62,845 nucleotides of DNA from Spirochaetales bacterium (GTDB lineage: Bacteria; Spirochaetota; GWE2-31-10; MWDO01): positions 1 to 62,845 of the forward strand of contig JAFYAI010000012.1 of the NCBI GenBank assembly GCA_017540815.1. Reading direction: 5' to 3'. This document shows, piece by piece, positions 18,140 through 51,205 of the stretch. The notes under the pieces are model-generated. The model saw only the letters and a list, made by a program, of their open reading frames with translations, searched no databases and had not been told where the DNA came from. Made by a program: the position numbers and the translations under genes. How positions within the stretch are numbered: position 1 is the first letter of the stretch; each line of letters opens with the position of its first letter.

Positions 18140-18322
18140 ATGCGAATTATTACCAAAGAATATCAGGAAATGCTCGATAAAAGCGAAGCATATAATTATA
18201 TCAAAAATACGCCCAAACCGGATTTCACGGAATTGGATAAATCAGTGGCAGAATTTGAATCATGGATTAAAGCAGAACATGAAAAAGACCGCAAACTTAT
18301 TAGGGAGTCGTATAAAAAATGA
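18140..18322 (+). CDS. small helical protein upstream of GNAT, antitoxin candidate
   Basis: 60 residues, highly charged and helical: MRIITKEYQEMLDKSEAYN, FTELDKSVAEFESWIKAEHE. It has a very good ribosome site (AGGAGG) and overlaps the GNAT gene by ATGA (18319-18322). No ribbon-helix-helix as in TacA/AtaR antitoxins can be seen. The pairing and overlap make an antitoxin or accessory role plausible, but this is inference. Confidence 0.65.
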   Translation: MRIITKEYQEMLDKSEAYNYIKNTPKPDFTELDKSVAEFESWIKAEHEKDRKLIRESYKK

Positions 18323-18894
18323 TAGTAGAATTTTCAGTGTATGACACCTCGGATTATTCTGTTGAACATTTATTAGATTCGTCTAATAATTTGAGATTGA
18401 TACAAGAGTTTGAAGTTGGTAATCAAGCCGGCGGTTTGGAAGATTATCTTAAATATCAAGCGGAAAATGATGAAAGGAATAATAACAGCCGAACATATCT
18501 TGTCAAAGATGTGGTTACAGGAGAATTAGTTGGTTATTTCTCTCTGCGAACAGGATTGATCACAATTCAAGTCACAGGTGATAGTTTTGACTCATTTCCG
18601 GCAATCGAACTTGCTAATCTTGCCGTAAATAAGAAATATAAAGATGCTCACCCTAACGCAACAGAATTAGGATTTTATACTTTCAGAAAATTCATCCTTC
18701 CGATCAGCCGCTGCATGGCTAAATATGTTGGCGTAAACTCTCTGTATATTTATGCTTTGCCGGAAGAAAAACTTATCCGGCATTATCAGAAAATGGGATT
18801 TTCACGCCTTCCTGCATCGCAGGAAAAATTTGTGCAGCACCATGTCAAACCCAAATATGATGAAGGATGCATTTTTATGTATCAGATATTATAA
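18319..18894 (+). CDS. GNAT-family acetyltransferase, possible TA toxin
   Basis: 191 residues with a GNAT fold: ELVGYFSLRTGLITI (strands 2-4), AIELANLAVNKKYKD (strand 4 and helix), the acetyl-CoA loop region ATELGFYTFRKFILPIS, and the C-terminal LYIYALPEEKLIRHYQKMGF with the conserved Tyr-x-x-x-GF. Toxins such as TacT and AtaT are GNATs that acetylate aminoacyl-tRNA and follow a small antitoxin gene, as here. The substrate is not deducible. The pyrophosphate loop R/QxxGxG/A is poorly kept. Confidence 0.72.
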   Translation: MIVEFSVYDTSDYSVEHLLDSSNNLRLIQEFEVGNQAGGLEDYLKYQAENDERNNNSRTYLVKDVVTGELVGYFSLRTGLITIQVTGDSFDSFPAIELANLAVNKKYKDAHPNATELGFYTFRKFILPISRCMAKYVGVNSLYIYALPEEKLIRHYQKMGFSRLPASQEKFVQHHVKPKYDEGCIFMYQIL

Positions 18895-28556: not shown

Positions 28557-28598
28557 TAAAAAATCGGTTTTGGTCACCAAAACCGATTTTTTTTGTTT
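28557..28598. terminator. terminator of the activase gene
   Basis: AAATCGGTTTTGGT pairs with ACCAAAACCGATTT around a very tight turn, followed by T8. Confidence 0.92.
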
Positions 28599-28643: not shown

Positions 28644-28672
28644 TTGAAATTGCTCTGTCAATATGATATATT
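28644..28672 (+). promoter_or_regulatory. promoter of the unknown three-gene cluster
   Basis: TTGAAA (28644-28649), 17 bp, TATATT (28667-28672). Confidence 0.6.
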
Positions 28673-28707: not shown

Positions 28708-30129
28708 ATGTTTGCTTGCAATTATAAAAAACTGAGATTGTCGTTCAACAAATTCTACAATATGGACGACAAAACCAAGCCTGATTACTGGCAGCTGTGT
28801 CTGCTTGAACTGAAAGACGGGCGGCATACGGCAGGAGCGTGGGATCCTTCCGATAATGGGAAATCAGGGAAGTTTATACGGGGACAATTCGATTCTATTG
28901 AATTAGCCGAAGTGTCTAAATGGCATTCGATGGCATACAACCTTTCAAAGTGTTTGGAAGATGAAGAAATCAACTGGATAGACAACGAAGACGAGGTAGA
29001 AGGCCAATACAATATCCAGATCGAGAACTTCAAGTCGTTCAGCGACGGCGACAGTCCCAAAAATGAGCAGTACTGTCTTGTAATCCTAAACGACGGCACG
29101 CTTTCCGCAGGCAGATGGGACGAGGACTGCGAAAGATTTGACACTTGGGGACGACCAACCATCGGCGAGGATGAGGTGTGGGCTTGGTCGGCGTTAAGCT
29201 CCGACGATTTCTTTGCAATGGAAGAAGAATGGGAAAACGAACGCAAGCAGGAGGAGCAGCTTAACAGCAATGCAACTGCCGATCCTGAACTGTTCAAATA
29301 CGGAACCGACATCACGGAATACTATAGCAAAGCCTTGGAAAAACTCCGCGAAAAATATCCTTGGGCAACGCTGACGCAAATGCTGAAAAAAACACATTGG
29401 GATATTGTCCCACTCCACGGAAAATATGTTTTCGGGCAGGTAAGCGAAGGGTATCGCGGCTCCAAGATAGTAAAAGAATGGACCGATGGAACTACCGCCG
29501 ATGAATTTATAGACTTCCTTTGCAAATATGTCAAAGAGCCGGTGAAAAACTCCAATCCCAAAACGAAGTTCAAGTACGGCTATGACATTGAGATATACTT
29601 AGACAAGGCATACATGAAAGTCAAAAAAGATTACCATTGGCTTGACAAAAAGATGCTCAAAAAATACTGCCGATTCGACATACAGCAAATTGACGGCGAG
29701 TGGGAATTCATGAGGGCGTGGAAAAACGACAAAGAATATCATGTGCTCGAAGTCAGTGATGCCGACAACTTTTTGGAAAATGCGGAATACGCCTGTCAAG
29801 AGGCGGCAGTCAACGCCAATCCGGTAGTGGCAGAATATAAAGTACCGTTTGGACATATAGAAATACACGGCTGGAACCTGGAAAGGTACGAGTTTTTAAA
29901 GATGAAGACGGGTGACTATAAGGTAACAGTGCAGGCCGGCGACCGTGTGACAGGCGGCACAAGGACATTCTTTATCCCGCCAAAATGTTTCGAGGCAAAA
30001 ACATACGGCGAGTTTCTGGACCGTTATCTTGGAATCGTCTCTGAATCTTTCGGACTGACCAAGCAAGACCTTCTGTCTAACGCGGAATTGAAGAAGTTCC
30101 TCGGATACAGCGACAGCAGTGAAAGTTAA
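28708..30129 (+). CDS. protein of unknown function with duplicated segments
   Basis: 473 residues, acidic, no signal peptide or membrane segment. Two internal duplications can be seen. Residues about 25-70 and 118-160 share YWQLCLLELKDGRHTAGAWD against YCLVILNDGTLSAGRWDED. Residues about 195-280 and 287-370 share FKYGTDITEYYSKALEKLRE against FKYGYDIEIYLDKAYMKVKK, then MLKK..xxDI. No known family is recognised. It is first of three genes with a 9-bp gap to the next. ATG 28708 has a weak GGCGG; MDDK at 28762 is the alternative start. Confidence 0.65.
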   Translation: MFACNYKKLRLSFNKFYNMDDKTKPDYWQLCLLELKDGRHTAGAWDPSDNGKSGKFIRGQFDSIELAEVSKWHSMAYNLSKCLEDEEINWIDNEDEVEGQYNIQIENFKSFSDGDSPKNEQYCLVILNDGTLSAGRWDEDCERFDTWGRPTIGEDEVWAWSALSSDDFFAMEEEWENERKQEEQLNSNATADPELFKYGTDITEYYSKALEKLREKYPWATLTQMLKKTHWDIVPLHGKYVFGQVSEGYRGSKIVKEWTDGTTADEFIDFLCKYVKEPVKNSNPKTKFKYGYDIEIYLDKAYMKVKKDYHWLDKKMLKKYCRFDIQQIDGEWEFMRAWKNDKEYHVLEVSDADNFLENAEYACQEAAVNANPVVAEYKVPFGHIEIHGWNLERYEFLKMKTGDYKVTVQAGDRVTGGTRTFFIPPKCFEAKTYGEFLDRYLGIVSESFGLTKQDLLSNAELKKFLGYSDSSES

Positions 30130-30138
30130 GGAGCAGTT

Positions 30139-30759
30139 GTGGAAACAGAAAAAGACATATTTGACAGAGCTACCGAAAAGCTCGACCTTTATGTCCCGAC
30201 GCTTTTGAAACACGATTATGTCAAAGAAGCCGGGGAGTTCCTTGTTCCGGGTGGTGAGTATGTCAGGTTTGCCGTTAAGGAGTTTATGAAAGAACTGATC
30301 TTCGAGCTAATCAAACCGACAGAATATAAACAAGAATCAGTTTACATAGACATGGATCCGATTTACGAGACAGTAAAAAGTGAACTCCCGGAACATTTTG
30401 AGGTCAGCCACGGACTCGAAGGATATATTTTTTCCGAGTTCGTACATGTTAAGATTAACGATATTTTGTCATTCCACCTCATCAGAGGACATCACGCATT
30501 CTCTATTGTCGGGATACGTGTAGACGGCTTTTGGGACGACGATGAAATGTACTGGATGGGGACTGTCGCCGAAGAAACAGGCGACGAACTGCTTGCGTGT
30601 CAGGCAAACGGTGACTGTGAACAGTCCTCCGCCTATTTCTGCCCCGATCAAACGATGGAGTTCTGCCGTATTGCCAATTATGTGTACGATAATATAGATC
30701 GCTTCATGCAAATGGCGGAAGAAAAGGCACTGCAGGAGAGAAAAAAGTATAACCTGTAA
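30139..30759 (+). CDS. unknown protein; stand-alone form of a shared domain
   Basis: 206 residues from GTG 30139 with RBS AAGGAG. The product aligns along its length with the last 200 residues of the next protein: FLVPGGEYVRFAVKEFMKEL against YLSPDGGFVKNCITSFVKAL, YIDMDPIYETVKSELP against YEVDLNKVYDEIRSLLP, and matching helical C-termini ending in basic residues. It has no known domain, no membrane segment and an acidic character. It is the middle gene of the cluster. Confidence 0.65.
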   Translation: METEKDIFDRATEKLDLYVPTLLKHDYVKEAGEFLVPGGEYVRFAVKEFMKELIFELIKPTEYKQESVYIDMDPIYETVKSELPEHFEVSHGLEGYIFSEFVHVKINDILSFHLIRGHHAFSIVGIRVDGFWDDDEMYWMGTVAEETGDELLACQANGDCEQSSAYFCPDQTMEFCRIANYVYDNIDRFMQMAEEKALQERKKYNL

Positions 30760-30782
30760 ATCATACGGAAACCGGTGTTTTT

Positions 30783-32666
30783 ATGGAAACAATAGAAAAG
30801 TATAGAGACTGCAAAAAAGAAGAAGTAATCCGCAAAGTTCCGGATAATCTTTGGTACGATTGGCTTGAGCAAGCGTCGGAAGAAGACAGAGCGGACGAGA
30901 TTTTTATGAAAAAGATTATCCTCCGTCGCGGTGAGTGTCTGAAATTCGCCCCGGCATCGCTGAAGTCGGACAGAGACACAGTCCTTAAGATTGTGAAGTG
31001 CAGCCCCTCAGCTTTCGTTTACGCATCCGATGAATTACAAAACGATCGGAAATTTGTAAAGCAGGCGGTGAATATGAACGCCGAAGTAATACGCTTCGTA
31101 AGCGACAGATTCAAAAACGACAAAGGGCTCGCCCTCCTCGCCGTCAGAAATAACCGGGAAATATTCTCCTCTCTCACGGAGGAGATGCAGAGCGACGCCG
31201 ACGTGGCGGAAGCGTGGCTCGGCGGAAAGCCGTTCAAGCTGAAAAACGCACCGGAAATAATACGGGACAACAAGGCGTTTGCGATCAGAACGCTTTCCAT
31301 GTACGGCAGTTTCCTCAAAGACGCGAGCGAACATCTTCGTGCCGACAAAGAAGTCGTGATTGCAGCTGTCGGCTCGGCGTGGGATGCACTCGGATTTGCC
31401 TGCGAAACTCTGAGAAGTGACCGCGACATCGTCCTTGCCGCCGTAAGGCATGACGGATACGCACTTCAGTTTGCTTCAGATAAACTAAAGGACGACAAAG
31501 AGATAGTCCTCACTGCGATAGAGACCTACGAAGGCGATGTACTCGAATATGCTTCGGAACGGTTGAGAGACGACAAAGAAACAGTCATGACCGCCGTCAA
31601 GAGATGCGAATATTCTATTGGCTTCGCATCGGAGCGGTTAAGACACGACGGCGATGTTATCCGTACCGTCCTCGACGCATATCCCGGGCAGTTTGAAAAC
31701 CTGCCGGATGATGTACAGGAGGATCTCGATTACATACTGTTCGGACTTGAGAGTGTCGTCAGACATCTGCCCGATCCGAACAACTACAGTTTTTTTGAAG
31801 ACTCGACAAGCGAATACTATTCGGATTTCGCTCAGGCTGAAGAAGATTTTCTCGATATATTCGAGTCGATACCGAGCGGGCTGCTGCAGGACGACACGGA
31901 TCTCAGCGACAGAGTCAGTCGGCTCGCCATTGAACTGAACAACGCATATTACAAAGAAGCCAATTATCCTTATGAGGATGTTCACGACGATTTAATACGC
32001 CGTATGGAATCACTATACGAGGAATACGATATTCCTATAAGACCAATCCTCAAATATGCAATCGAATCACTCCACAAAGAGAGCAAAGAAAAGAAAGACG
32101 ATAAATACAAAGATCTCGATTCCGAGGAAAGGTGTTTTTACGAAAATCTCGACAATTATGAAAAAATCGTCTGTAAATCCGCTGCGAAATTCGGAACGGA
32201 AAGTGAAAAAGAGTATCTGAGTCCTGACGGTGGCTTCGTTAAAAATTGCATAACATCTTTCGTCAAGGCTCTCGTATATTCACAGAACGGACTTTACCGC
32301 GACAGCGAGCTTTGGGAGAACGATAATTACGAGGTTGATCTCAATAAGGTTTACGATGAGATTAGGTCACTGCTGCCCCCGAAGATTAAAACGGTTAGAA
32401 AAACCTGCGAATTCTATTACTCGGATAATATCACCGTAGATGTCACAGACGATATTCACCTGATCCTTGTCAGAGCGGTGTCACCGAAGATCATAAATAT
32501 CCGGGTGAATAGAGCAGATTCTGAACATGAGCACGACAAATGGCTCGCTCCGAACAGACTTGGTGAATTCTGCGATATGGTCAAACATATATCCGATATT
32601 TGCGGCAAATACACTGAAATTGCACAGCGACGTGCTGCAGAACTCAGAGACAGATTCGGATTGTGA
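30783..32666 (+). CDS. DUF4116-repeat protein with shared C-terminal domain
   Basis: 627 residues. From about 50 to 310 there are helical repeats of about 25-35 residues with the DUF4116 pattern (SDRDTVLKIVKCSPSAFVYA, LRSDRDIVLAAVRHDGYALQ, LRDDKETVMTAVKRCEYSIG). An acidic middle part follows. The last 200 residues repeat the protein encoded just upstream. DUF4116 repeats are probable protein-binding surfaces of unknown purpose. The G+C of the repeats is higher than in most neighbouring genes. Only a weak RBS precedes ATG 30783. Confidence 0.72.
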   Translation: METIEKYRDCKKEEVIRKVPDNLWYDWLEQASEEDRADEIFMKKIILRRGECLKFAPASLKSDRDTVLKIVKCSPSAFVYASDELQNDRKFVKQAVNMNAEVIRFVSDRFKNDKGLALLAVRNNREIFSSLTEEMQSDADVAEAWLGGKPFKLKNAPEIIRDNKAFAIRTLSMYGSFLKDASEHLRADKEVVIAAVGSAWDALGFACETLRSDRDIVLAAVRHDGYALQFASDKLKDDKEIVLTAIETYEGDVLEYASERLRDDKETVMTAVKRCEYSIGFASERLRHDGDVIRTVLDAYPGQFENLPDDVQEDLDYILFGLESVVRHLPDPNNYSFFEDSTSEYYSDFAQAEEDFLDIFESIPSGLLQDDTDLSDRVSRLAIELNNAYYKEANYPYEDVHDDLIRRMESLYEEYDIPIRPILKYAIESLHKESKEKKDDKYKDLDSEERCFYENLDNYEKIVCKSAAKFGTESEKEYLSPDGGFVKNCITSFVKALVYSQNGLYRDSELWENDNYEVDLNKVYDEIRSLLPPKIKTVRKTCEFYYSDNITVDVTDDIHLILVRAVSPKIINIRVNRADSEHEHDKWLAPNRLGEFCDMVKHISDICGKYTEIAQRRAAELRDRFGL

Positions 32667-32708
32667 AAATAATTATGGTAAAATTTAGTTTAATATATGA
32701 TTATTTTT

Positions 32709-32970
32709 TATAAATCTTCCATAATCATAAATAAGTTTCTGCCAAGCCTTGAAAGTTCTGCACATATAATCAGATCATCTTTTTGCACTTTGTCTATCAA
32801 TAGTCCAAGTTTTCGCTTGTCATAGTTTTTTGTTCCACTGATGGTTTCTTCAATCCAACCATCAATTATGAGATTTTCTCGAATACAAAAATTATTAATC
32901 TCAAATCGTTGATTTTTCTCTGTTTGTCACTTGGAACACGAATATAGCCGTATACCAGACTAATCTCCGT
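32709..32970 (-). pseudogene. serine recombinase (resolvase/invertase) remnant
   Basis: The minus strand encodes a degraded serine recombinase N-terminal domain. VYGYIRVPSDKQ (with the catalytic Ser one turn later than usual or replaced) runs into a frameshift at an A5 run. It continues in the next frame as NQRFEINNFCIRENLIIDGW, ETISGTKNYDKRKLGLLI and AELSRLGRNLFMIMEDL, then a stop at 32709-32711. The family motif ELSRLGRN is intact. The rest of the protein is missing and there is no proper start codon. It marks a past mobile element next to the accessory cluster. The remaining 33-bp and 130-bp flanks to 33102 show no other feature. Confidence 0.88.
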
Positions 32971-33102: not shown

Positions 33103-33146
33103 TTATGGCAATGTTATGGCAATGTTATGGCAATGTTACGGCAATG
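33103..33146 (+). repeat. four 11-bp tandem repeats (iteron-like)
   Basis: TTATGGCAATG is repeated four times head to tail, the fourth with one change (TTACGGCAATG). They end 28 bp before the ATG of the AlbA-domain gene, in its promoter/leader region. Confidence 0.92.
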
Positions 33147-33174
33147 TTGGATATGATTATTTTAGGAGTAACTA

Positions 33175-34602
33175 ATGAAAATAACCGAGTTATATTCTGA
33201 TGTTTTACTTGAAGATACTCATTACGAATTTAAGGCTGTTTTGAATTCTGATAATCCTATTAAATGGGCTAAAACAATTGTCGCTTATGCAAATGGGAAT
33301 GGCGGCTATTTGTTTGTGGGAGTGTCTAATGATAGGGAAGCTTTTGGTCTTACTCTTGAAGAAATTGACAAGACTAAAAATTTGATCGCTTTAGTAAATG
33401 ACAGGCATATATTCCCTCATGCTAAGATAACTTATATGCTTCGTAGCGTTGATGATAATGCTGAGCATTTTGTATTAGCACTAAGGATTTCAGTGTCAGA
33501 TTCTGTTGTTCGATATCGGGAAGGAGATTTTAACGAAACCGTATATGTAAAAGGTGACGGAAATTCAACTCCTGCAACACCTGAAGAAATAATTTCGCTT
33601 TCCAAAAGAAAATTCGGGGTAGATAACGAGACAACAGATATTATATATTCTGAAGAAGAATGGTCTGAATTTATCGATTTATGTAAAGAATTCAGAAGTG
33701 ATAAGTCTGAACCATCAATAAAAGAATTACAAAATGAAGAAATCTTATCAAAAGACAAATATGCAAAATCAGGATTTGTAATGTTTAGGGATGATTACAA
33801 TGAAGACGATTCATTGATATGCTGTCGTTTATGGAGAGGAACATCAAAAACTAGTGATGTTCTTGATAGCGGAAAGATAAAAGGATCACTTCCAAAAGTT
33901 TTACGCTTTGCATTGAATTTTATTGAACGAAATACAAAAACAGGATGGAAAAAAACAAATACAGGTGGGCGTGAGGAAATCCGCTCTTATCCAAAAGAAG
34001 CGGTAAGAGAGGCTTTAGTTAATGCAATTGCTCATAGGGATTATTCAATACGAGGAACACAGATAGATGTTGATATTTACACCGACAGGATAGATGTTGT
34101 TTCTCCAGGATCATGGCTATTGCCAAAAGATTATTATGACTATCCTCTTGGTTCAATTCCGTCAATCCGAAGGAATTCAATAATTGCAGCTTGTCTTGAT
34201 GTCGCAAATCTTATGGAACGTGGTGGAACAGGCTTTCAGACCATGATAGAGAGTTATAAGGATTCAGAACCTGAAAAACAACCTTGTGTTATGATTTATC
34301 CCGGTTTCCTGAATCTTAGATTATTCGATAGATTATATCAGAAAGAACAAAATGTTATGACATTGACTGATTCAGAAAAGGTACTTGCATCGCTTAAAGA
34401 ATGTCCTAAGTCCATAAAAGAATTGCAGGCATTGACAAATTACAAAAGTCGAAGCCGATTCCTTGAAGATGTTATAAATCCTCTTATTGACTCTGGACAA
34501 ATCTACCGTGAAGGGAATGTGAAATCTCCGACGGCAGTTTTTAAGATAAATGAAGATAATATGAGTATGGTAAAAGAAAGTCAGAGATGCAACAGAAATT
34601 AA
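33175..34602 (+). CDS. AlbA_2/Schlafen-domain putative transcriptional regulator
   Basis: 475 residues with RBS AGGAG. The N-terminal 130 residues are an AlbA_2/Schlafen domain (HYEFKAVLNSDNPIKWAKTI, GNGGYLFVGVSNDREAFGL). A middle region follows, then a HATPase-like RecG-associated domain (YPKEAVREALVNAIAHRDYS, IDVVSPGSWLLPKDY, ANLMERGGTGFQTM). The end looks like a winged helix. Proteins of this type are DNA-binding regulators or defence-linked nucleases; the exact role is open. Codon use is AT-rich relative to the core genes, as is common for this mobile family. The iteron-like repeats in front may be its operator. Confidence 0.87.
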   Translation: MKITELYSDVLLEDTHYEFKAVLNSDNPIKWAKTIVAYANGNGGYLFVGVSNDREAFGLTLEEIDKTKNLIALVNDRHIFPHAKITYMLRSVDDNAEHFVLALRISVSDSVVRYREGDFNETVYVKGDGNSTPATPEEIISLSKRKFGVDNETTDIIYSEEEWSEFIDLCKEFRSDKSEPSIKELQNEEILSKDKYAKSGFVMFRDDYNEDDSLICCRLWRGTSKTSDVLDSGKIKGSLPKVLRFALNFIERNTKTGWKKTNTGGREEIRSYPKEAVREALVNAIAHRDYSIRGTQIDVDIYTDRIDVVSPGSWLLPKDYYDYPLGSIPSIRRNSIIAACLDVANLMERGGTGFQTMIESYKDSEPEKQPCVMIYPGFLNLRLFDRLYQKEQNVMTLTDSEKVLASLKECPKSIKELQALTNYKSRSRFLEDVINPLIDSGQIYREGNVKSPTAVFKINEDNMSMVKESQRCNRN

Positions 34603-36120: not shown

Positions 36121-36152
36121 TTCATAATGCATAATGCGGAATTATGCATTAA
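36112..36152. repeat. AATTCATAATTCATAATGCAT element at the 3' end
   Basis: ATAATTCATAATTCATAATG covers the end of the ACT-MBL gene and supplies its stop; CATAATGC-GGA-ATTATGCAT then folds back. Similar AATTCATAATTCAT tracts end genes at 53239 and 60113. Confidence 0.7.
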
Positions 36153-37494
36153 TAGATATATCGCCATCAGAGCAATGCACAACTTTTGACGGAACCTCTT
36201 CATTCCATTGTTTGCCTTTTTTTATCTTTCTCCATTGTTCCATCGTGCCGCTGTATGTGATGGTTTTAAGCGATGAACAGTCTTTAAATGCACTTTCGCC
36301 AATTGATTCTACTTCAATAGGTATCTTTATTGACTCCAATGATAAACAATCATCAAAGGCATGTTTTCCAATATATTTCATGTTGGCAGATAGTTCTATC
36401 GATTCCAGTGATAAACAATCAAAAAATACATATCCTCCAATAGATTTTATTCCAGCAGGAAGTACTATTGATGATAATGATGTACATTCAGCAAATGCAT
36501 ATTTGCCAATATATATTACACCGATAGGTATATCTATCGACTTCAGCGATGAACAGCTTCTAAATGTCATAGATACAATTTTTGTTACTTTTGCCGGCAG
36601 TTTTATTGACTTTAGCGATTGACAACCTTCAAACGCACTTGTGTGGATTGATTGCACTTCACTAGGTATTACTATTGATTCTAATGATTCACAGTTTAAA
36701 AAAACCTTTTCTTCAATCGATCTTACTCTATGCGGCAATTCTATCGTTTTTAGTGATTTACAGCCTTCAAATGCACTTGTGCTGATTGATTGCACTTCAC
36801 TAGGTATTACTATCGATTCTAATGATTCGCAGTTTAAAAACACATTTCTTTCAATCGATCTCACTCTATACGGCAATTCTATCATTTTTAGCGATTTACA
36901 GCCTTCAAATGCACCACGACCAATCTCTGTAACTCCATCAGGTATTTTTATCGACTCCAACGATGAACAGTCATCAAATGCATCATCTCCAATTGATTCC
37001 ACTCTAATCGGAAGTTTTAATAATTTAATAAATTTATAAAAAGGTTGATAAAAAATACCAAATGGACCATTCTTTTTTTCAGACTCTTGAAATGAAGTAT
37101 GAAAAAAATTATATTCAAATTTCTTAATTCCATTCATATATATAGCATATTTCTTTTCATCACACTCTGCAAAAGCAAAATGGCATTTTATGAGATAATC
37201 TTCGATTTCTGAAAAAGGTCTTTTCATAGAAAAATATTCCAACAAATTCGGCAATATCTCTTTCCATTCCATTACCAAATTGTTAGAAAATGATATTTCT
37301 ATCTTACTATCATCAAGCGGAAGAACAAGTACAGTTGCATAATTTGTTCTAAGAATTTCATGTTTCATTTCGTATTTATCTGCAATAGATTTCATCACCG
37401 CATTTGCAGTTGCCGCTTCCATATCAGCTATTTTCTTTCGCTTGGCTTCTTCTTTTTCTTCATCCGTGAAAATGTCATTGTTTGTTTGTGGCAT
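36142..37494 (-). CDS. TpLRR/BspA-type leucine-rich repeat protein 1
   Basis: 450 residues, no signal peptide. The N-terminal 150 residues are non-repetitive, and their beginning (MPQTNNDIFTDEEKEEAKRK) closely matches LRR protein 4. About eleven 23-residue LRR_5 units follow, of the pattern SIGDDAFDDCSSLESIKIPDGV. The C-terminal tail SGTMEQWRKIKKGKQW ... VVHCSDGDISI is shared with all five LRR proteins here. These repeats form elongated solenoids for protein contacts; lack of export signals suggests a cytoplasmic place or a secretion route not seen in the sequence. Function unknown. Confidence 0.88.
   Translation of the reverse strand: MPQTNNDIFTDEEKEEAKRKKIADMEAATANAVMKSIADKYEMKHEILRTNYATVLVLPLDDSKIEISFSNNLVMEWKEILPNLLEYFSMKRPFSEIEDYLIKCHFAFAECDEKKYAIYMNGIKKFEYNFFHTSFQESEKKNGPFGIFYQPFYKFIKLLKLPIRVESIGDDAFDDCSSLESIKIPDGVTEIGRGAFEGCKSLKMIELPYRVRSIERNVFLNCESLESIVIPSEVQSISTSAFEGCKSLKTIELPHRVRSIEEKVFLNCESLESIVIPSEVQSIHTSAFEGCQSLKSIKLPAKVTKIVSMTFRSCSSLKSIDIPIGVIYIGKYAFAECTSLSSIVLPAGIKSIGGYVFFDCLSLESIELSANMKYIGKHAFDDCLSLESIKIPIEVESIGESAFKDCSSLKTITYSGTMEQWRKIKKGKQWNEEVPSKVVHCSDGDISINA
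36626..36901 (-). repeat. 138-bp tandem duplication within LRR gene 1
   Basis: Two units of 138 bp (starting at 36626 and 36764) match nearly base for base, and the next block begins at 36902. Each codes for two LRR units (46 residues). Confidence 0.88.
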
Positions 37495-41614: not shown

Positions 41615-42073
41615 TTATTCATTAATCTCCACATCGCCGTCAAGGCAGTGAACGACTTTAATACCGCTTTGCATATTCCAATTCGAGCCTTTCACAATAT
41701 CGGCCCACTGCTTTGTAGTTCCTGCATAGCGGAGTTCTTCCAAAGACGCACATCCCAAGAATGCATAAGTCCCTATCTGTGTTACTCCAATCGGAATCTC
41801 AATCGATTCCAAAGAGAGGCAAACCATAAACGCATTGTGGCCTATCGCTTCCAGACTATTCGGCAAGACTATCGACTTCAAACCGTAACATTCTTCAAAT
41901 GCTCCGCTGCTTGTCATCGTTATGCTGCCTATGAAAGCACATTCATCTATTGCCGGCTCGTTTTCATTTACCTGCTCAATTCGCATCTTTTTACAGGTTT
42001 CTCTAATGTATTGTTTATCTTTTTCGGTTAATTTAAAATGCTTCCTTTCTCGCCCATTGTTTCTGATTGACAT
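41615..42073 (-). CDS. TpLRR/BspA-type leucine-rich repeat protein 3 (short)
   Basis: 152 residues with RBS AGGAGG. After a basic N-terminus (FKLTEKDKQYIRETCKKMRI) there are three LRR_5 units (GAFEECYGLKSIVLPNSLEA, NAFMVCLSLESIEIPIGVTQ) and the common tail (YAGTTKQWADIVKGSNW ... VVHCLDGDVEI). It lacks the N-terminal domain of LRR proteins 1, 4 and 5 and may be a shortened paralogue. No export signal. Confidence 0.85.
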   Translation of the reverse strand: MSIRNNGRERKHFKLTEKDKQYIRETCKKMRIEQVNENEPAIDECAFIGSITMTSSGAFEECYGLKSIVLPNSLEAIGHNAFMVCLSLESIEIPIGVTQIGTYAFLGCASLEELRYAGTTKQWADIVKGSNWNMQSGIKVVHCLDGDVEINE

Positions 42074-42149: not shown

Positions 42150-43826
42150 TCAAAACCCGATTTTAAATTTCTTCTCGCCGAGTTTTTCATTCGTGCAGAG
42201 TTCAATAAGCTCGTTATAGTCGGCGTGTCGGCCGGTAATAATCTCATCCATCTCAACTTTACGGGCAATGTTATCTATCTGACCGCCGCTGAAATCATAG
42301 GCTCCGGCTATCGTTTCCAATGATTTGTCGTCAAGCCAGTTCAGTTTGTTCTTCCAGATTTTTTTCTTCGCTTCGATTGACGGATTGTCAAATTTCACTT
42401 TGAATAAAAACCGCCGCTCGAATGCCGCATCAAGATTGTCAGCGAGGTTTGTCGTGGCAATCATTATCCCTTCAAATTTCTCCATTTCTTCGAGAATGAT
42501 ATTCTGCATCGCATTCTCAGTCTGAGCAACATTGCTGCTTGAAGTGTCTTTTCGCTTGGAGAGAATGCCGTCGGCCTCGTTAAACAGCAAAATCGGAATG
42601 CGGGTATCACCTGACCTGCGGCACATTTTGCACAAATCACGATAATCAGTAAAAATCTTCTTAATAATCTTCTCACTCTCACCGAACCAGCAAGACTTGG
42701 ATGCACTTATATCGACTCGGAGAATCTTCCTGCCCGTTGCTTTGGCAATCTGGAAAGCACTCTCAGTTTTGCCCGTTCCGGGAGCTCCGTAGAGAAGCAC
42801 AGCAACGCCTTTATTCATTCCCTTCTCAGTAAGACGATTCTGAATCTGAACAAAAGTATCCTCGGAAACAATATCTTTGAGCCGCAGCATTTGATGTTCA
42901 TTCTCATCAGAGTAAAACATATCTTTGTGAATGATGCTGTCAGGACTGATAATATCTGCTCCTTTTATCGATTTAGTGTAATATTTAAGGTCATCACCAA
43001 GGAGCATCTGCTTGGCATTGTATGTCAGAGTCAGTGTTGCATCGTTAATTGACTCTTTTTTGATAAACTCTATCAGATCGGATGCAAACAAAACATTGCT
43101 CTCATTCATAAATTCTGCAAAATGCTCCCGTGCACCGGCTCGACCGTAAGTCGCATTCAATGTCGCAACCAAATCGGATTCATCACGCTTCAGAAAGTCA
43201 TTGCATACATTGTAAAAAAATATTCTCTGTTCAATGTCAGGCACAAGAGCATTTATGTGGCTGATGAACTCAAGTTCAGCGAAGTTCTCCTCTGCCCGAT
43301 CTATCACTGCTGAGATGTCGCCACGTCTCATGCGTCTTTCCAATCTATCAAATAATTGTGCGATTTCTCCAAAAAAGCCATATACCGTCTGATCTGTCTC
43401 ATCAGCGGCGATCTCAATCGGTTTATTATTCAGGATGCAGTCAATCAACTCTTTGTTCAACTCAAATATATTACACAACTCCATGTTGCCGGCAATGCGA
43501 TAGCTGCCGTTATGACGGATATAATGTTTCCCAACAAGTGATGATATATCATCCCAATATGTCAAAGCAGTCATTATGGAGCAGTCGAAAAACCTTGCTA
43601 TGTCTCTTACGGAACACTGTTCCTCCATATCGTCAAAACAATATGATACTATCGCACACAGCATATAAGTCTCATTCTCGTCAGTACCGAAATATTCATT
43701 CAATTTTTCAACACTCTCCGTCAATTCCGCACTCTTCCTTATTTTCAGCTTGGAATCTTTAAGTTTCTCAGAAACTTTTGCTATCGCCTTAACAACATTG
43801 AAATTAATTGATTTTTCCTGCGTCAT
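42150..43826 (-). CDS. AAA+ ATPase with N-terminal helical region
   Basis: 558 residues with RBS AAGGAG. Residues 1-320 are helical, with a winged-helix-like stretch (CSVRDIARFFDCSIMTALTY). The AAA module covers about 340-540: Walker A LLYGAPGTGKTESAFQIA, Walker B ILLFNEADGILSKR (Asn-Glu instead of Asp-Glu), sensor 1 GIMIATTNLADNL, arginine finger LDAAFERRFLFKVKF and sensor 2 GGQIDNIARK. It resembles ATPases of the SpoVK/CbbX-like or FtsH-like classical AAA group that remodel protein complexes. Partner unknown; it sits between LRR genes. Confidence 0.88.
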   Translation of the reverse strand: MTQEKSINFNVVKAIAKVSEKLKDSKLKIRKSAELTESVEKLNEYFGTDENETYMLCAIVSYCFDDMEEQCSVRDIARFFDCSIMTALTYWDDISSLVGKHYIRHNGSYRIAGNMELCNIFELNKELIDCILNNKPIEIAADETDQTVYGFFGEIAQLFDRLERRMRRGDISAVIDRAEENFAELEFISHINALVPDIEQRIFFYNVCNDFLKRDESDLVATLNATYGRAGAREHFAEFMNESNVLFASDLIEFIKKESINDATLTLTYNAKQMLLGDDLKYYTKSIKGADIISPDSIIHKDMFYSDENEHQMLRLKDIVSEDTFVQIQNRLTEKGMNKGVAVLLYGAPGTGKTESAFQIAKATGRKILRVDISASKSCWFGESEKIIKKIFTDYRDLCKMCRRSGDTRIPILLFNEADGILSKRKDTSSSNVAQTENAMQNIILEEMEKFEGIMIATTNLADNLDAAFERRFLFKVKFDNPSIEAKKKIWKNKLNWLDDKSLETIAGAYDFSGGQIDNIARKVEMDEIITGRHADYNELIELCTNEKLGEKKFKIGF

Positions 43827-43983
43827 TTCCTGCTCCTTATGATTATTTTTTATACCTTATTATAACCGATGACTCTATCATATTATGATAAAGTGAGAAT
43901 TTTTTTTCGTCCTCACCCCCTATCCTCCTCTCCACCGAAAATGATGACGAGGTGGAACTAAACTATATTATTCCTATTTAGTA

Positions 43984-44079
43984 TCTCTCCGACAGACATT
44001 ATAAACCAATCACGACGGTATTGTCCCCTCTCTATGCAGACCTGCATGGAGAGGAGATGCCGTAGGCAGGGGTGAGGTC
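43984..44079 (+). repeat. dispersed two-hairpin repeat, copy B
   Basis: Second copy, same orientation as A: CCCCTCTCT ... GGAGAGGAG, TGCC-GTA-GGCA, GGGGTGAGG. It lies in the 350-bp gap between the AAA gene and the 44179 gene. The other parts of that gap hold only the AAA promoter (TATAAT near 43860), a CTCACCCCC tract near 43915 and an imperfect hairpin at about 44083-44114. Confidence 0.85.
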
Positions 44080-44178
44080 TTGCGACACATACCTTCAGCA
44101 GTCACTGACGGTGTGTGTCCGGATTACTAAAATAATATAACCCCTTATTAATAACAAAATACACAATCTGACAACAAA

Positions 44179-44427
44179 TTATTGTTTTTTTTCTTCCATT
44201 CGTGACTTAACCAAAGAGGTCAAAGAGTCCAGCAGCTTCAACGCAGATTCTTCATTCAAATGTAAAAAATAATCTTTCACAATATCATCAAAAGATTTCT
44301 CTGTGAGTTCATTAAAAATTTTGTTATACAAGTTAAATCGATCACTAAATCTGTATGTCACGCCATTTATTGATACTGTAGCGTAACATATTCCGGGTCC
44401 CAAATACTTAACGGTTAAATCTTTCAT
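44179..44427 (-). CDS. small protein of unknown function (82 aa)
   Basis: 82 residues, RBS AAGGAGA. The first half is beta-like (MKDLTVKYLGPGICYATVSI, GVTYRFSDR); the second is helical and charged (FDDIVKDYFLHLNEESALKL). No family is recognised. Three promoters can be read on its strand: a near one (TATAAT 44459-44464 with TTTCAG), one shared with the 40243 gene (44521-44549) and a distal one with two iron-box-like operators (44615-44643). This is unusually rich control for so small a gene. Confidence 0.6.
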   Translation of the reverse strand: MKDLTVKYLGPGICYATVSINGVTYRFSDRFNLYNKIFNELTEKSFDDIVKDYFLHLNEESALKLLDSLTSLVKSRMEEKKQ

Positions 44428-44501
44428 AATAAAGTCTCCTTATTTACTCTACACACTTATTATAACCAGAAAAACTGGAAACTGAAAGTTTTTTAATAAA
44501 A

Positions 44502-44560
44502 TTTTACACATTTTTCTTACACTATATGTTATAAGATTTTTTTTGGCAAAAGGTCTAAAC
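44502..44560 (-). promoter_or_regulatory. promoter element shared with the 40243 gene (copy 2)
   Basis: Minus strand TTGCCA (44544-44549), 17 bp, TATAGT (44521-44526), inside a block of about 60 bp nearly identical to 40929-40990. Confidence 0.72.
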
Positions 44561-44582
44561 TGCTGTAAAATTTGCAACTTAT

Positions 44583-44643
44583 TTAGGTTATACACAACCT
44601 AATCTTCAAGGTTAAACATAACCTAAATAATGAGATTTGTCAA
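44583..44643 (-). promoter_or_regulatory. promoter with two DtxR-like operators
   Basis: TTAGGTTATACACAACCTAA (44583-44602) and AGGTTAAACATAACCT (44609-44624), centres 24 bp apart. The second covers the -10 box TATGTT (44615-44620) of a minus-strand promoter with TTGACA (44638-44643) at 17 bp. The sites are close to the DtxR/IdeR consensus. Confidence 0.68.
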
Positions 44644-44702
44644 GTACTTTTTTTAAAAATTTTTAAATTTTTTAGATTTTTTAAGTAGAAGAATTAAATC
44701 TA

Positions 44703-45986
44703 TTATATCTCCACATCCCCATCGGTGCAGTGAATAACTTTGGCAGGAATTTTATAATAACAATTTGTTCCTTTTTCTATCTTTTCCCATTGCTCTCTTG
44801 TTCCGCTGAATGTAATATTTTCAAGTGATGTACAGCCTGCAAATGCTCTGAATCCGATTGATGTTACTCTTTCAGGCAGTTGTATAGATTTCAGCTGTGT
44901 GCAGTGGTAAAATGCCTGTCTCCAGATTGATTTCACTCCTTCAGGCAATTGTATTGATTCCAGCGATGTACAGTTTTCAAATGTACCATCTCCGATTGAT
45001 TTCACTCCTTCAGGCAGTTGTATTGATTCCAACGATGTGCAGACTTTAAATGCACCTTCTCCGATTGATGTTACTCTTTCAGGCAGTTGTATTGATTTCA
45101 GCTGTCTGCAGCAGTAAAATGCCTGTCTCCCGATTGATGTCACTCCTTTAGGCAGTTGTATTGATTTTAGCGATGTGCAGACTTCAAATGCACCTTCTCC
45201 TATTGATGTTACTCCTTTAGGCAGTTGTATAGATTCCAGCGAGAAGCAGTTGCTAAATGCATCTTTCCCGATTGATTTCACTTCAGCAGGCAGTTCTATA
45301 GATTTCAGAGATTCGCAGCCCCAAAATGCAGCATTCCCGATTGATGTTACTCCTTTAGGCAGTTGTATAGATTTTAGCGATTTGCAGCCACTAAATGCAC
45401 TGCTTCCGATTGATGTTACTCCTTCAGACAGTTGTATAGATTCCAGCGATGTGCAGTTGCTAAATGCATCTTTCCCTATTGATGTTACTCCTTCAGACAG
45501 TTGTATCGATTTTAACGATTTGCAGGACCAAAATGCATCTTCTCCTATTGATGTCACTCCTTCAGTCACAAATACTGATTCAAATGAAGAAACATTGATT
45601 TCTTTGGAAATTTTATCTATAATGGCATATTTTCGTGCTTTGTATCCGAGATATTCAATGCGATTATCCCGACAGTATGTGACAACTTCTCCAACCGACG
45701 CTCCGCTGGATATGAAATCATACAGTTTGGTAAGTTTATCCTGTATTATTTGCCTTTGATTGATAATAGCTGAGTCGCTCAGGCTGATCTCAATACCGCT
45801 ATTTCCGATTGGGATAATCAGTACACAGTATTTTATAAAATGATATTGTTCATATTTGGCACCAAGCTGGGCAAGTATAATTTTGAGAATCGCTTGTGCG
45901 GTTACAGCATTCATCTCGGCGATTTTCTTTCGCTTGGCTTTTTCTTTTTCTTCCTTTGGGAAAATGTCGTTGTTTGTTTGTGACAT
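44703..45986 (-). CDS. TpLRR/BspA-type leucine-rich repeat protein 4
   Basis: 427 residues from ATG 45984-45986 (RBS GGAG). The start MSQTNNDIFPKEEKEKAKRK matches LRR protein 1. A 130-residue N-terminal domain is followed by eleven very regular 23-residue LRR_5 units, each close to SIQLPEGVTSIGEGAFKVCT. The shared tail SGTREQWEKIEKGTNCY ... VIHCTDGDVEI ends the protein. The 69-bp units are so alike in DNA that they must be kept uniform by recombination or recent expansion. No signal peptide. Confidence 0.9.
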   Translation of the reverse strand: MSQTNNDIFPKEEKEKAKRKKIAEMNAVTAQAILKIILAQLGAKYEQYHFIKYCVLIIPIGNSGIEISLSDSAIINQRQIIQDKLTKLYDFISSGASVGEVVTYCRDNRIEYLGYKARKYAIIDKISKEINVSSFESVFVTEGVTSIGEDAFWSCKSLKSIQLSEGVTSIGKDAFSNCTSLESIQLSEGVTSIGSSAFSGCKSLKSIQLPKGVTSIGNAAFWGCESLKSIELPAEVKSIGKDAFSNCFSLESIQLPKGVTSIGEGAFEVCTSLKSIQLPKGVTSIGRQAFYCCRQLKSIQLPERVTSIGEGAFKVCTSLESIQLPEGVKSIGDGTFENCTSLESIQLPEGVKSIWRQAFYHCTQLKSIQLPERVTSIGFRAFAGCTSLENITFSGTREQWEKIEKGTNCYYKIPAKVIHCTDGDVEI

Positions 45987-46002
45987 TCTTTCGTCTCCTA
46001 AA

Positions 46003-46072
46003 GCCTCATCCCCGCCTGCCACTCGGCAGGCTGCCCCTTCTCCATGCAAGCACGGAGAAGGGGCTTCATTAC
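46003..46072 (-). repeat. dispersed two-hairpin repeat, copy C (inverted)
   Basis: Opposite orientation to A and B: CCTCATCCCC, GCCTGCC-ACTC-GGCAGGC, then CCCCTTCTCC ... GGAGAAGGGG. It lies in the leader of LRR gene 4. Confidence 0.78.
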
Positions 46073-46113
46073 CTGTTTGGTGTCATCACGACAGTTTTAT
46101 AATAATAACTTTG

Positions 46114-46142
46114 ACGGAAAAAAGTCAAAGACTTTTTTCCGT
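46114..46142. terminator. hairpin ACGGAAAAAAGTC / GACTTTTTTCCGT
   Basis: A perfect 13-bp stem with AAA loop and flanking T/A runs ends the vWA gene on the minus strand. The right side (minus strand) gives TTGACT followed by TATTAT about 17-18 bp on, a promoter for LRR gene 4. A near copy is at 53085-53121. Confidence 0.72.
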
Positions 46143-46157
46143 TTTACAAAAATTGTC

Positions 46158-47528
46158 TCACTCCCCTCGCGGTATATATGTTGCCCGATTTCGTGCAATC
46201 TTTTTAATCTCATCTTTGCATTCTTCATACTCATGCTTGCCGCACAATACCCAGAGGACATCGATCGGACGCTTGGTGTTGAATGTCGGCAGAGGTGCAT
46301 AGCCGTCGGTGAAATAGATAAGTCCGTCGTATTCGGGATGAGCACAGTAATAGTCCGCAGCCGGCTGAAAGCTCGTGCCGCCCCGTCCGATAATCTTAAC
46401 TTCCGAGCGGGCTTTCTTCATCGGAATAGGTTCGCCTTTTAGCTCGGCATCGAACTGAATGACATCGAGTTTTTCAATGCCGTACTTGAAGAAGCGGTTA
46501 ATAATCGAGAAAAAGTTCGACAGACTCTCATTGGAGACCGAGCCGCTGACATCGACTGCGATAAGGAGATTGCTTGCAAGTGCGTAGCGGCTGCCCATCG
46601 CATCGAAACCGTAGCGGCGGCTCGGTTTCATCCGAGTCAGATAACGGCGGCTTGACAGCACCGATGTCCTAAAATGCGACAGCATCCGCCGATAATCCAT
46701 CTCAATACGGCAGCTTGCTTTGATAAGACTGACAAGATCTCCCGACATATTTCCCCATTGATTGGAGCGTTGTGCCTCTTCGATGATCTTGTTAATGTCG
46801 CAGCAGGTTTCTTCGTCTTCTTTCCATTCCACCGCAGTTTCATAAGACTGCCGGAGGATATTCTTCAGTTTATCACTTATGCCGGAGCCGCTGCCCTGAG
46901 CTGCATCTGCTGAGTTTTGGTCATCGCCGGACTCTCCACCGCCATTCTGACCGGCTTCGTCTTGATTGGGTTCTCCATTGCCGTTTTGGGTCTGTTCATC
47001 GCTGTCGCTGTCGCCGGATTCTCCGCTGTTTTGACCTTGCTCATTCTTAGCATCTTCATTTTGACTTCCGTGCTCAGCCTGTTCCATCAATGCGGTAAAC
47101 GCGGTAAGCGGCGGAACAAGATGCTTAATCTTCTCATAATATTCCTCGAAACAGAGGTTGTCCGGCAAGTCATATTCCAATCCATGAAGGAACTCTCTCG
47201 CCGCATCGCCTATGCGGCACGAATCGTTAATCGTCACATTGCTCGCCATCGCCATCACTATCGGGTTGGCGGCAGTCGGCTGACGCTGATACGGATGCTT
47301 TAGGAGAATGCGGATCACTTCGATTTTGAGACCTTCTTCGATAGTATCATCATCCATATTCTCCAAAATGTGCGGAGCATACTCAATCCTACGCTTGCCA
47401 ACACGAAACGGCACAGAGAGTTTGTCATTCGACACAAGAGCATGCGTGCAGAATGTCGGGAACAATACCGGTTCTGTGAGAAACCACTTGTCCGTGATTT
47501 TTTTGATTATCGCTTCCAGATTTTTCAT
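46158..47528 (-). CDS. vWA-like metallopeptidase-related protein (DUF2201/VWA-like)
   Basis: 456 residues. The N-terminal DUF2201 part has a zincin-like helix without the metal motif (LKIEVIRILLKHPYQRQ). An acidic, Gln/Asn/Gly-rich linker lies at about 175-235. The C-terminal VWA-like domain has NLLIAVDVSGSVSNESLS (MIDAS D-x-S-x-S), GGTSFQPAADYY and LIYFTDGYAPLP. Such proteins pair with MoxR AAA ATPases, which use them to reach targets. Start ATG overlaps the MoxR stop (47525-47528), so the two are a unit. Confidence 0.9.
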   Translation of the reverse strand: MKNLEAIIKKITDKWFLTEPVLFPTFCTHALVSNDKLSVPFRVGKRRIEYAPHILENMDDDTIEEGLKIEVIRILLKHPYQRQPTAANPIVMAMASNVTINDSCRIGDAAREFLHGLEYDLPDNLCFEEYYEKIKHLVPPLTAFTALMEQAEHGSQNEDAKNEQGQNSGESGDSDSDEQTQNGNGEPNQDEAGQNGGGESGDDQNSADAAQGSGSGISDKLKNILRQSYETAVEWKEDEETCCDINKIIEEAQRSNQWGNMSGDLVSLIKASCRIEMDYRRMLSHFRTSVLSSRRYLTRMKPSRRYGFDAMGSRYALASNLLIAVDVSGSVSNESLSNFFSIINRFFKYGIEKLDVIQFDAELKGEPIPMKKARSEVKIIGRGGTSFQPAADYYCAHPEYDGLIYFTDGYAPLPTFNTKRPIDVLWVLCGKHEYEECKDEIKKIARNRATYIPRGE

Positions 47529-48595
47529 ATTGAACTGATAAATTTCATTACCTTATTATACAGCGGTCCGCAGTGTTCGATTATGAACATTATCGCATTC
47601 TGATAAGTGCCCGACTGATAGCAGTTGGCGAAATGAGCCATCGCCTCGCGGTAATCTTCCATAAACAGCAGTTCATAATACGCTGTGAGATTATTCGTTA
47701 TTTTCGCAATGTCATTCGGCGTGTATGAGTCCGCTTCGATAAATCGGAACAGAGATTCATTGACTGCTGCGAAGTCCGGAGTAGTGTATTTCTTAATCTT
47801 GTCCTTGAGCTTGTCGAAGTCACCCAAGAGGATGTCCTTAGCCGACAGAAGTCTCAGCTTCGCAATCGACTCAATGAACTTTGATGCCGCCCCCATTCCG
47901 ACAATGCCGGCTGCCATTTTTTTAAGCAGGTCTTCCGACACATTTTCTTCCATTATATTGGAGATTCGCTGCCAGCCTCGGCGGTCGGGAGTTTTGTCCA
48001 ACCCCTGATCCTCGCGTTTGAATGCCGCACCGTCAAGCATGTCGGGATTCTCCGAGATGAAGTCTATAATATGCTGGTTAATGCCATTCTGAGCTGCCCA
48101 CAGCAGCCACTCCTCAACGGTCGGCCGAAACTCATATATGTTGAATCGGCTCACCAAAGCCGGATCGAGATCGGTCAGCTGATACTCCTCACCGTCATTA
48201 ACGGCACTGATTATTCTGCTGCCTTCGGGAAGTCGTTTGCCGGCGAGAGTTCGATTCAGAGTGAGATCCATTATTGTCTGCAGCACCTCAGGTCTTGCAC
48301 GATTGAGCTCATCGAGGAACAGCACAACCGGCTGATTGTCAGTCGGCCACCAATACGGCGGCATAAATGTTGTCTTGCCTGTCGCCTCATCCTTATTCGG
48401 CAGACCGATTAAGTCGCCCGGATCGCTCATCTGCCCCAAAAACAGTATTACTACCTTGTGTCCCTGTGCGGTGAAATATCGCTCCAAAATCTGTGATTTG
48501 CCGATACCGTGCCGCCCCGTGAGCATTATATTCTGCTCCGCCGGTGTTGCGGCAAGTATCTTTTGCAGTTCGCCTGCACTTATGCTGACTGACAT
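47525..48595 (-). CDS. MoxR-family AAA+ ATPase
   Basis: 356 residues with RBS GGAG. It shows Walker A MLTGRHGIGKSQIL, the loop DPGDLIGLPNKDE, Walker B VVLFLDELNRARPEVLQTIM with the typical ELNRA, sensor 1 RIISAVNDGEEY, arginine finger LDPALVSRFNIYEF and a lid domain. MoxR ATPases act as chaperones with vWA partners; the partner is the next gene. It is divergent from the NYN-like gene across a 130-bp AT-rich region with TATAAT boxes both ways. Confidence 0.92.
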   Translation of the reverse strand: MSVSISAGELQKILAATPAEQNIMLTGRHGIGKSQILERYFTAQGHKVVILFLGQMSDPGDLIGLPNKDEATGKTTFMPPYWWPTDNQPVVLFLDELNRARPEVLQTIMDLTLNRTLAGKRLPEGSRIISAVNDGEEYQLTDLDPALVSRFNIYEFRPTVEEWLLWAAQNGINQHIIDFISENPDMLDGAAFKREDQGLDKTPDRRGWQRISNIMEENVSEDLLKKMAAGIVGMGAASKFIESIAKLRLLSAKDILLGDFDKLKDKIKKYTTPDFAAVNESLFRFIEADSYTPNDIAKITNNLTAYYELLFMEDYREAMAHFANCYQSGTYQNAIMFIIEHCGPLYNKVMKFISSI

Positions 48596-49579: not shown

Positions 49580-51205
49580 TTATATCTCTATCTCCTCGTC
49601 AGAGCAATGAATAACCGCACCGCGATTGAGATGCTTCTGCCAATCGGGATATTTGTTTATCGCTTTCCAGCGGCTAAGAGTTCCGCCGAATGTGATATTT
49701 GTCAGACTGCCGCATGCAACGAACTGAAGTCCGTCTATCTCTTCGACGCTGCCTGGGATTTCCACCGATTTTAAGCAGTCACATTCCGTAATCGCCGCAT
49801 CATCTATCCTAATGAGACTTGACGGCATTTTGATTGAGCGGCAGCGGCACATTCTCAACGCATTTATATGGATCTGCTCAACTCCGTCAGGGATAACGAC
49901 TGTCTCGACATTCTGTCTGCAATAGAACAGGACATTTTTGATGATGAGCATTGCCGGTATGACGGCATCTCCGTCAGCACAGTGAACCGTCTCCGCTTCG
50001 GTATGCACGGTCAGCGATCTGGTATTGTTGATGACGCTATCCCATTGCGATACAGTTCCGCCGAATGTTACATTATTTAACGACTCGCACTCCGAGAAAG
50101 CATCGGCTCTAATATTCGTTACGCTTTGCGGAATATATACTGAGTGAAGGTGATCGCATCCGCCAAACGCATTCTCTCCTATAATACGCACTCCATCAGG
50201 AATTGTGACGGACTCGGCAAACAAGCTACATGTAACAAAACAATCGTTTTCGATTACAAACTGCGGAATCTCCACATCGCCGTCAAAACACTTAACAAAC
50301 CGAACAGGCGATGATCTGACGATATTGACAGTAATATTTTGTCGCTGCTCATATTGTGACTTCGTTCCTTCAAAAAACAGATACTCAAGCGAGTCACACA
50401 CAGCAAACACCTGACTTCTGATTTGTTTAATTCCTTCAGAAATCCACACGGACTTAACGGTTCCGACTCCCACACCAAAAGTTCCGCCTGTCTTTTCATC
50501 AAAAACGGCATAGTGCTTGGAATAAAACGAAGGCAAAATGATATTATGCTCTCTGCAGCAGGCGACCAGCTCGGCGATAGCAATCCCGTTCTTAACTCGC
50601 TCTAACAGATTCGGCAGGAATGTCATCCATTTCTGAAAGTCCTCATCTGCCAACATAATATCCACACCGCCAATGTCGGCAGGCAGTGAAAGTGCAGTTA
50701 TATAATCTTGGATTCGATACTGTTCAATGTCCATTCCTGATTTGGCAATGATATTTTTCAGCAGTGCGGCGGCAGTTGCAGCATCCATTTCTGCTTTCTT
50801 TGCAAGTTTTGCCTGATTTTTCTCCGCTTCTTTGGTTATCAGATCGAGTATCTCATCGCTGCCGCCTGTGTCCTGCAGATCACATTTTATATCGACGAAC
50901 TCCCCACCGGGCTCGAATGAGACTGATGTACAGTTGGTCAGACCGCCATACCTGACTCCCCGGACTTCTCTCGGGATGACAACGCTGCCGCAGACGGTGG
51001 TGATAAGCATTCTATTCTTCGCATCATACAGGCAGCCTGACTTGCTGACGAACAGCGGAGATTTCGATATAATTTGTCTCAGTTCGGCACATCCTGCGAA
51101 AGCATTGTCTGCGATGAATTTGACATTCTCAGGTATCTCTGCTGTTATTGTATCAGTGGGGCATTTCTCCAATACTCCGGCTTCGATTCGCATATCGCTG
51201 GTCAT
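49580..51205 (-). CDS. TpLRR/BspA-type leucine-rich repeat protein 5
   Basis: 541 residues. It begins with an LRR_5 unit (NVKFIADNAFAGCAELRQII) and a strand-rich segment. It then has the helical N-terminal module of proteins 1 and 4 (KLAKKAEMDAATAAALLKNI, ending in KHYAVFDEKTGG), and more irregular LRR units broken by three copies of the tail motif (EGTKSQYEQRQNI ... VKCFDGDVEI, GGTVSQWDSVI ... VHCADGDAVI and GGTLSRWKAINKYPDW ... VIHCSDEEIEI). Thus the tail motif can also be internal. No signal peptide. Confidence 0.87.
   Translation of the reverse strand: MTSDMRIEAGVLEKCPTDTITAEIPENVKFIADNAFAGCAELRQIISKSPLFVSKSGCLYDAKNRMLITTVCGSVVIPREVRGVRYGGLTNCTSVSFEPGGEFVDIKCDLQDTGGSDEILDLITKEAEKNQAKLAKKAEMDAATAAALLKNIIAKSGMDIEQYRIQDYITALSLPADIGGVDIMLADEDFQKWMTFLPNLLERVKNGIAIAELVACCREHNIILPSFYSKHYAVFDEKTGGTFGVGVGTVKSVWISEGIKQIRSQVFAVCDSLEYLFFEGTKSQYEQRQNITVNIVRSSPVRFVKCFDGDVEIPQFVIENDCFVTCSLFAESVTIPDGVRIIGENAFGGCDHLHSVYIPQSVTNIRADAFSECESLNNVTFGGTVSQWDSVINNTRSLTVHTEAETVHCADGDAVIPAMLIIKNVLFYCRQNVETVVIPDGVEQIHINALRMCRCRSIKMPSSLIRIDDAAITECDCLKSVEIPGSVEEIDGLQFVACGSLTNITFGGTLSRWKAINKYPDWQKHLNRGAVIHCSDEEIEI

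Follow-up and report, generated by a model that had tools for sequence, protein, structure and literature searches.

A laterally acquired cluster of three modular protein genes in a Spirochaetales bacterium and its likeness to polyimmunity loci

The closest described counterparts of the gene cluster reported here are the polyimmunity loci, in which closely spaced genes on one strand, with no toxin gene between them and with content that varies from locus to locus, encode immunity proteins of known families, including multi-domain proteins combined with repeat domains; a recombinase lies nearby in several cases (Zhang et al. 2012, PMC3482391). Such proteins neutralise toxins, and their families lie beside a polymorphic toxin in some genome. 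Immunity proteins directed against a single toxin keep their interface conserved (PMC3482391). A second point of comparison is provided by the tandem type VII secretion system immunity paralogues esaG and tipC, of which neighbouring copies are gained, lost and fused (PMC9484751).

Our cluster consists of genes A, B and C (Table 1) and lies in the window, by which we mean the whole 62,845-nucleotide stretch of DNA analysed. Like polyimmunity loci, it shows a common orientation, small intergenic gaps (9 bp between A and B, and 23 bp between B and C), no interposed toxin gene, variable content, a nearby recombinase, and multi-domain proteins combined with repeats. Unlike them, it has three genes only, no recognised immunity family, no toxin gene recognised at the loci read and low dN/dS values. 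The neighbouring paralogues B and C resemble esaG and tipC in the gain, loss and fusion of copies, with a fusion that here occurs at a short shared sequence; they differ in that B and the C-terminal domain of C (C-CTD) are only 20 % identical, and in that their surroundings showed no type VII effector.

Anatomy of the cluster and its surroundings

Table 1. Features of the cluster and its immediate flanks, in window coordinates
Feature	Position	Strand	Remarks
Intrinsic terminator of upstream CoA-activase-family gene	28558..28592	+	16-bp stem and T tail
Promoter-like site of cluster	28644..28672	+	TTGAAA-17-TATATT, extended TG; consensus scan only
Gene A	28708..30129	+	473 aa, acidic; A1 twin at residues 1-185, A2 twin at 186-370, A3 at 371-473
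Gene B	30139..30759	+	206 aa, GTG start; shared domain alone
Gene C	30783..32666	+	627 aa; DUF4116 solenoid, then linker, then B-like C-terminal domain
DUF4116 repeat cassette of C	30873..31757 (approximate limits)	+	Missing from the C homologue of L010
C-CTD, B homologue	32121..32663	+	Assigned by sequence comparison
Serine-recombinase N-terminal remnant	~32708..32970	-	Frame-shifted, truncated; fragments YGYIRVPSDKQ and IIDGWIEETISGTKNYDKRKLGLLIDKVQKDDLIICAELSRLGR; family assigned from sequence motif, not from a profile run

Protein A consists of A1 and A2 units, two of each, and ends in an A3 module. The two kinds of internal duplicate, already noticed in the preliminary description, gave z scores of 6.5 and 11.7, and none of 500 shuffles reached either. 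A is not related to B, and an AlphaFold2 model of A from the single sequence was uninformative (pLDDT 38).

The same description had proposed that B and the end of C share motifs in the same order, and this was borne out: BLASTP aligned the two over 178 columns with E=5e-12, at C residues 477-627, the similarity had a z score of 18.7 that was reached by none of 500 shuffles, and both proteins carry E[FY]LxPxGx[YF]V followed by D..x[VI]Y[DE].[IV].S.LP. The homology at the end of C is thus real, but the domain spans approximately 150-180 residues rather than the 200 first suggested. The DUF4116 repeats were likewise recovered, with eight stretches of C matching PF13475 at E=3.3e-79 (260.7 bits against a gathering score of 24.9). 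Published modelling makes DUF4116 an alpha-solenoid (PMC8078820). DUF4116 relatives are found in Mycoplasmopsis, on Escherichia coli plasmids and in one Fusobacterium phage; the B-like domain of C was not seen in them. The phage gene, in phiFN37 (L012:7773-8930), is situated downstream of an endolysin gene.

Neither Pfam nor NCBIfam holds a profile that matched A, B, C-CTD or the associated family S, described below, with a score above the cut-off, so that none of the four belongs to a known immunity family by this measure, the shared domain keeps its description as undescribed, and the housekeeping family that might have accounted for it did not appear. The weak Pfam matches beneath the cut-off (Lumazine_bd_2 at E=0.024, Y_Y_Y and SdrD_B) were rejected. 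The same profiles assigned none of the proteins A, B and C to an enzyme family; PADLOC-DB 2.0.0 had no match for any of the three, no nuclease, NADase or membrane domain was found in them, and no signal peptide was evident by inspection. Structure prediction, which had been suggested as a check, gave a confident AlphaFold2 model of B on seven homologues (pLDDT 84.5, pTM 0.83), with a predicted fold that combines a helical N-terminal part, a sheet of four strands and a long helix at the C terminus. At E<=0.001, neither the PDB nor the viral models of BFVD gave a Foldseek match to it.

The suggestion that the cluster has its own promoter agrees with its layout, as the upstream gene is closed by a strong terminator and the promoter-like site then precedes A, one of 13 such sites found in the region by the consensus scan against 9.4 expected. 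The recombinase remnant reported beside the cluster is also there. The G+C content does not single the cluster out as had been thought: the three genes have 44-47 %, against 46.1 % for the upstream gene, 48.5 % for one downstream gene and a window mean of 42.2 %. All three proteins are acidic, with a pI of 4.6-4.9.

Downstream of the cluster lies a Schlafen/AlbA-type gene (33175-34602; G+C content 34.9 %), directly preceded by four tandem copies of the 11-bp unit TTATGGCAATG (33103-33148). Several BspA-type LRR_5 genes follow, grouped within a span of 15 kb (36142-37494, 41615-42073, 44703-46049 and 49580-51205), of which three were confirmed and that at 44703-46049 resembles that at 36142-37494. 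Interleaved with the LRR genes, at 42150-48595, are genes for an AAA ATPase and for a DUF2201 protein of VWA-like/metallopeptidase type, as well as another ATPase-like gene; the best NCBIfam match of the ATPase was the IteA anti-phage ATPase, far under cut-off. An ORF of 191 aa at 18319-18894 had no Pfam or NCBIfam match.

Distribution, lateral transfer and cassette exchange

Homologues of A, B and C are very rare in the genomes compared, and almost confined to certain (rumen and other) Clostridia. Among 393 genomes of the host's phylum no other carrier of the B/C domain was found; a marginal match in one of them (G235) had no matching gene and was judged to be due to chance. In the order to which the genome of L011 belongs, only that genome, one of 392, carries the domain. 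B and C of Clostridia are 70-80 % identical to ours in amino-acid sequence, and the B homologues at L009, L010, L011, L061, L071 and L072 are 70-78 % identical. In a scan of GTDB contigs the domain appeared at three loci (75-78 % identity), all in metagenome-assembled genomes whose names refer to Clostridia, Bacillota or Lachnospiraceae and of which two bear rumen (RUG) isolate names. Beyond these three, copies occur in G975, G1162 and G1164.

The best match to B and C comes from G975, in the class Clostridia, with 77.8 % DNA identity over 1660 bp that run across the B-C gap; the first 340 aa of C are 79 % identical to the G975 orthologue. The flanking CoA-activase-type gene has 75-78 % protein identity to orthologues of the host's own family, in which relatives carry other genes downstream of it and lack the cluster. 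Because the DNA of B and C is as similar to that of Clostridia as the flanking gene is within the host family, the cluster is, on these comparisons, a lateral acquisition by this distant bacterium. The genome set comprises nine genomes for the host's class and more than 391 for that of G394, and the boundary crossed is therefore at least that of class. B and the start of C are 96.8 % identical in DNA between G394 and G1162, which the genome listing assigns to different families, a similarity that reflects either recent exchange or mis-binning.

C carries its repeats in the window and in G975, where the contig ends after 340 aa of C. In G394 the repeats are missing, and the start MEKIEKYINCKKEDV is joined directly to the linker. 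C is broken in G1162; in G395, B and C are fused in frame, with the junction at a short shared sequence, and G393 and G1164 have B alone. Counted together, B and C occur in five or more arrangements, to which are added loci of A with S (G910 and G975). S is a fourth family, of approximately 220 aa, absent from the window's genome. It adjoins A in G910. Of two loci in G975, one has S and A side by side, and in the other approximately 1.2 kb separates them; in G1162 S lies approximately 3.6 kb from B, and in G395 it stands upstream of the B-C fusion. Homology between the C terminus of S and A3 was suspected but weak (hhalign 14 %), and was set aside. The parts of the cluster are, as the comparison of loci indicates, exchangeable cassettes whose domains duplicate and fuse.

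Five full-length homologues of A (56-61 % identity) occur in four genomes of G394's class. The A2-A3 module is also found at the C terminus of a protein of the type I phosphodiesterase/nucleotide pyrophosphatase family (L055:8102-9766), and A3 within the unrelated protein L057; a match of A in L058, to a GH88 hydrolase, was judged to be due to chance. Scattered, unlinked homologues had been named beforehand as evidence against the preliminary reading, and here the picture is divided: B and C are linked in other genomes too, but beyond the window A mostly lies apart from them. A and S nonetheless share genomes with B and C or occupy accessory regions of the same type, and S ties A to them.

The dN/dS ratios of A, B, C and S, taken where synonymous sites were unsaturated, lie between 0.07 and 0.19, from which it follows that all four are conserved, functional proteins.

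Possible roles of the cluster

Our tentative reading, which we consider somewhat short of an even chance, is that the locus works like a polyimmunity locus, a small, laterally acquired set of cytosolic, non-catalytic binding proteins, although we do not file it as one. One transcript would yield three acidic, cytosolic, non-catalytic proteins assembled from exchangeable binding domains. B would be the basic unit, C would present a diverged B domain on its DUF4116 alpha-solenoid, and A would string together its duplicated A1 and A2 units and the C-terminal A3 module. Whereas the anatomy, homology, cassette exchange, transfer and purifying selection are direct results of the comparisons, it is from the duplicated domains, the alpha-solenoid and the lack of a catalytic family or evident signal peptide that we infer cytosolic protein binding: each domain may bind and occlude a protein, most likely a toxin from rumen or gut competitors, or else an endogenous target.

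Beyond the shared traits of layout, the repeats, acidity and accessory location lend this reading weak support. Against it, the dN/dS range is lower than is expected of fast-diversifying immunity genes, although a conserved interface is described for immunity proteins against a single toxin (PMC3482391), and the A2-A3 module is also carried by an ordinary member of the phosphodiesterase family. The association with toxins that is decisive for such loci did not appear: neither a toxin nor a secretion gene was recognised at the loci that were read, where part of the neighbours was covered and several of the contigs stop next to the genes.

Strong purifying selection is equally compatible with an ordinary, conserved accessory role. 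The main rival, which we regard as quite possible, if a little doubtful, is a laterally spread cytosolic module that serves in stress response, in regulation or as a protein scaffold and plays no part in conflict. Such a module would suit the selection on all four families, the occurrence of A2-A3 on the phosphodiesterase-family protein L055 and of A3 in the unrelated protein L057, and the metabolic and acetyltransferase genes that neighbour the homologues; it sits less well with their very patchy distribution, and with a C gene that is often lost or decayed and domains that are shuffled. An improbable alternative is that the genes are cargo in the decaying island of an integrative element, with no selected host function. 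The adjoining recombinase relic, the C pseudogene at L071 and the position of B at L009, approximately 2.4 kb from genes that by eye resemble those of conjugative elements, point that way, but the three window genes are intact, the low dN/dS holds across a long divergence, and collections of phage, plasmid and viral contigs contained no homologue of A, B or S, DUF4116 being the sole match. That these accessory, modular genes serve anti-phage defence or encode secreted effectors is highly improbable, since the three proteins have no defence-database match, nuclease, NADase, membrane domain or evident signal peptide, and the downstream Schlafen/AlbA-type gene, which with the phage-borne DUF4116 might have favoured it, differs in G+C content and was not seen beside homologues. 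The preliminary view of a modular, mobile conflict or effector system is thus borne out for modularity and mobility, given the gain and loss of the DUF4116 cassette, the B-C fusion and the lateral transfer. A conflict role draws no support from the low dN/dS, from the loci read, where no toxin or secretion gene was recognised, or from PADLOC, which gave no match, and effectors have no support.

A wider proposition, which is unlikely, is that A, the B/C-CTD domain and S represent several new domain families that serve in binding or immunity, a cassette-swapping repertoire of Clostridia in which B has a new fold and DUF4116 is an exchangeable scaffold, and which has moved across a boundary of class rank or higher. 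Should the immunity reading be true, these unnamed families would enlarge the set of antidotes that rumen and gut bacteria possess, and DUF4116, almost absent from the open literature searched (two papers), would gain a role. Should it be false, the findings would still comprise four unnamed families that are linked to one another and a clear example of lateral transfer accompanied by the gain and loss of domain cassettes.
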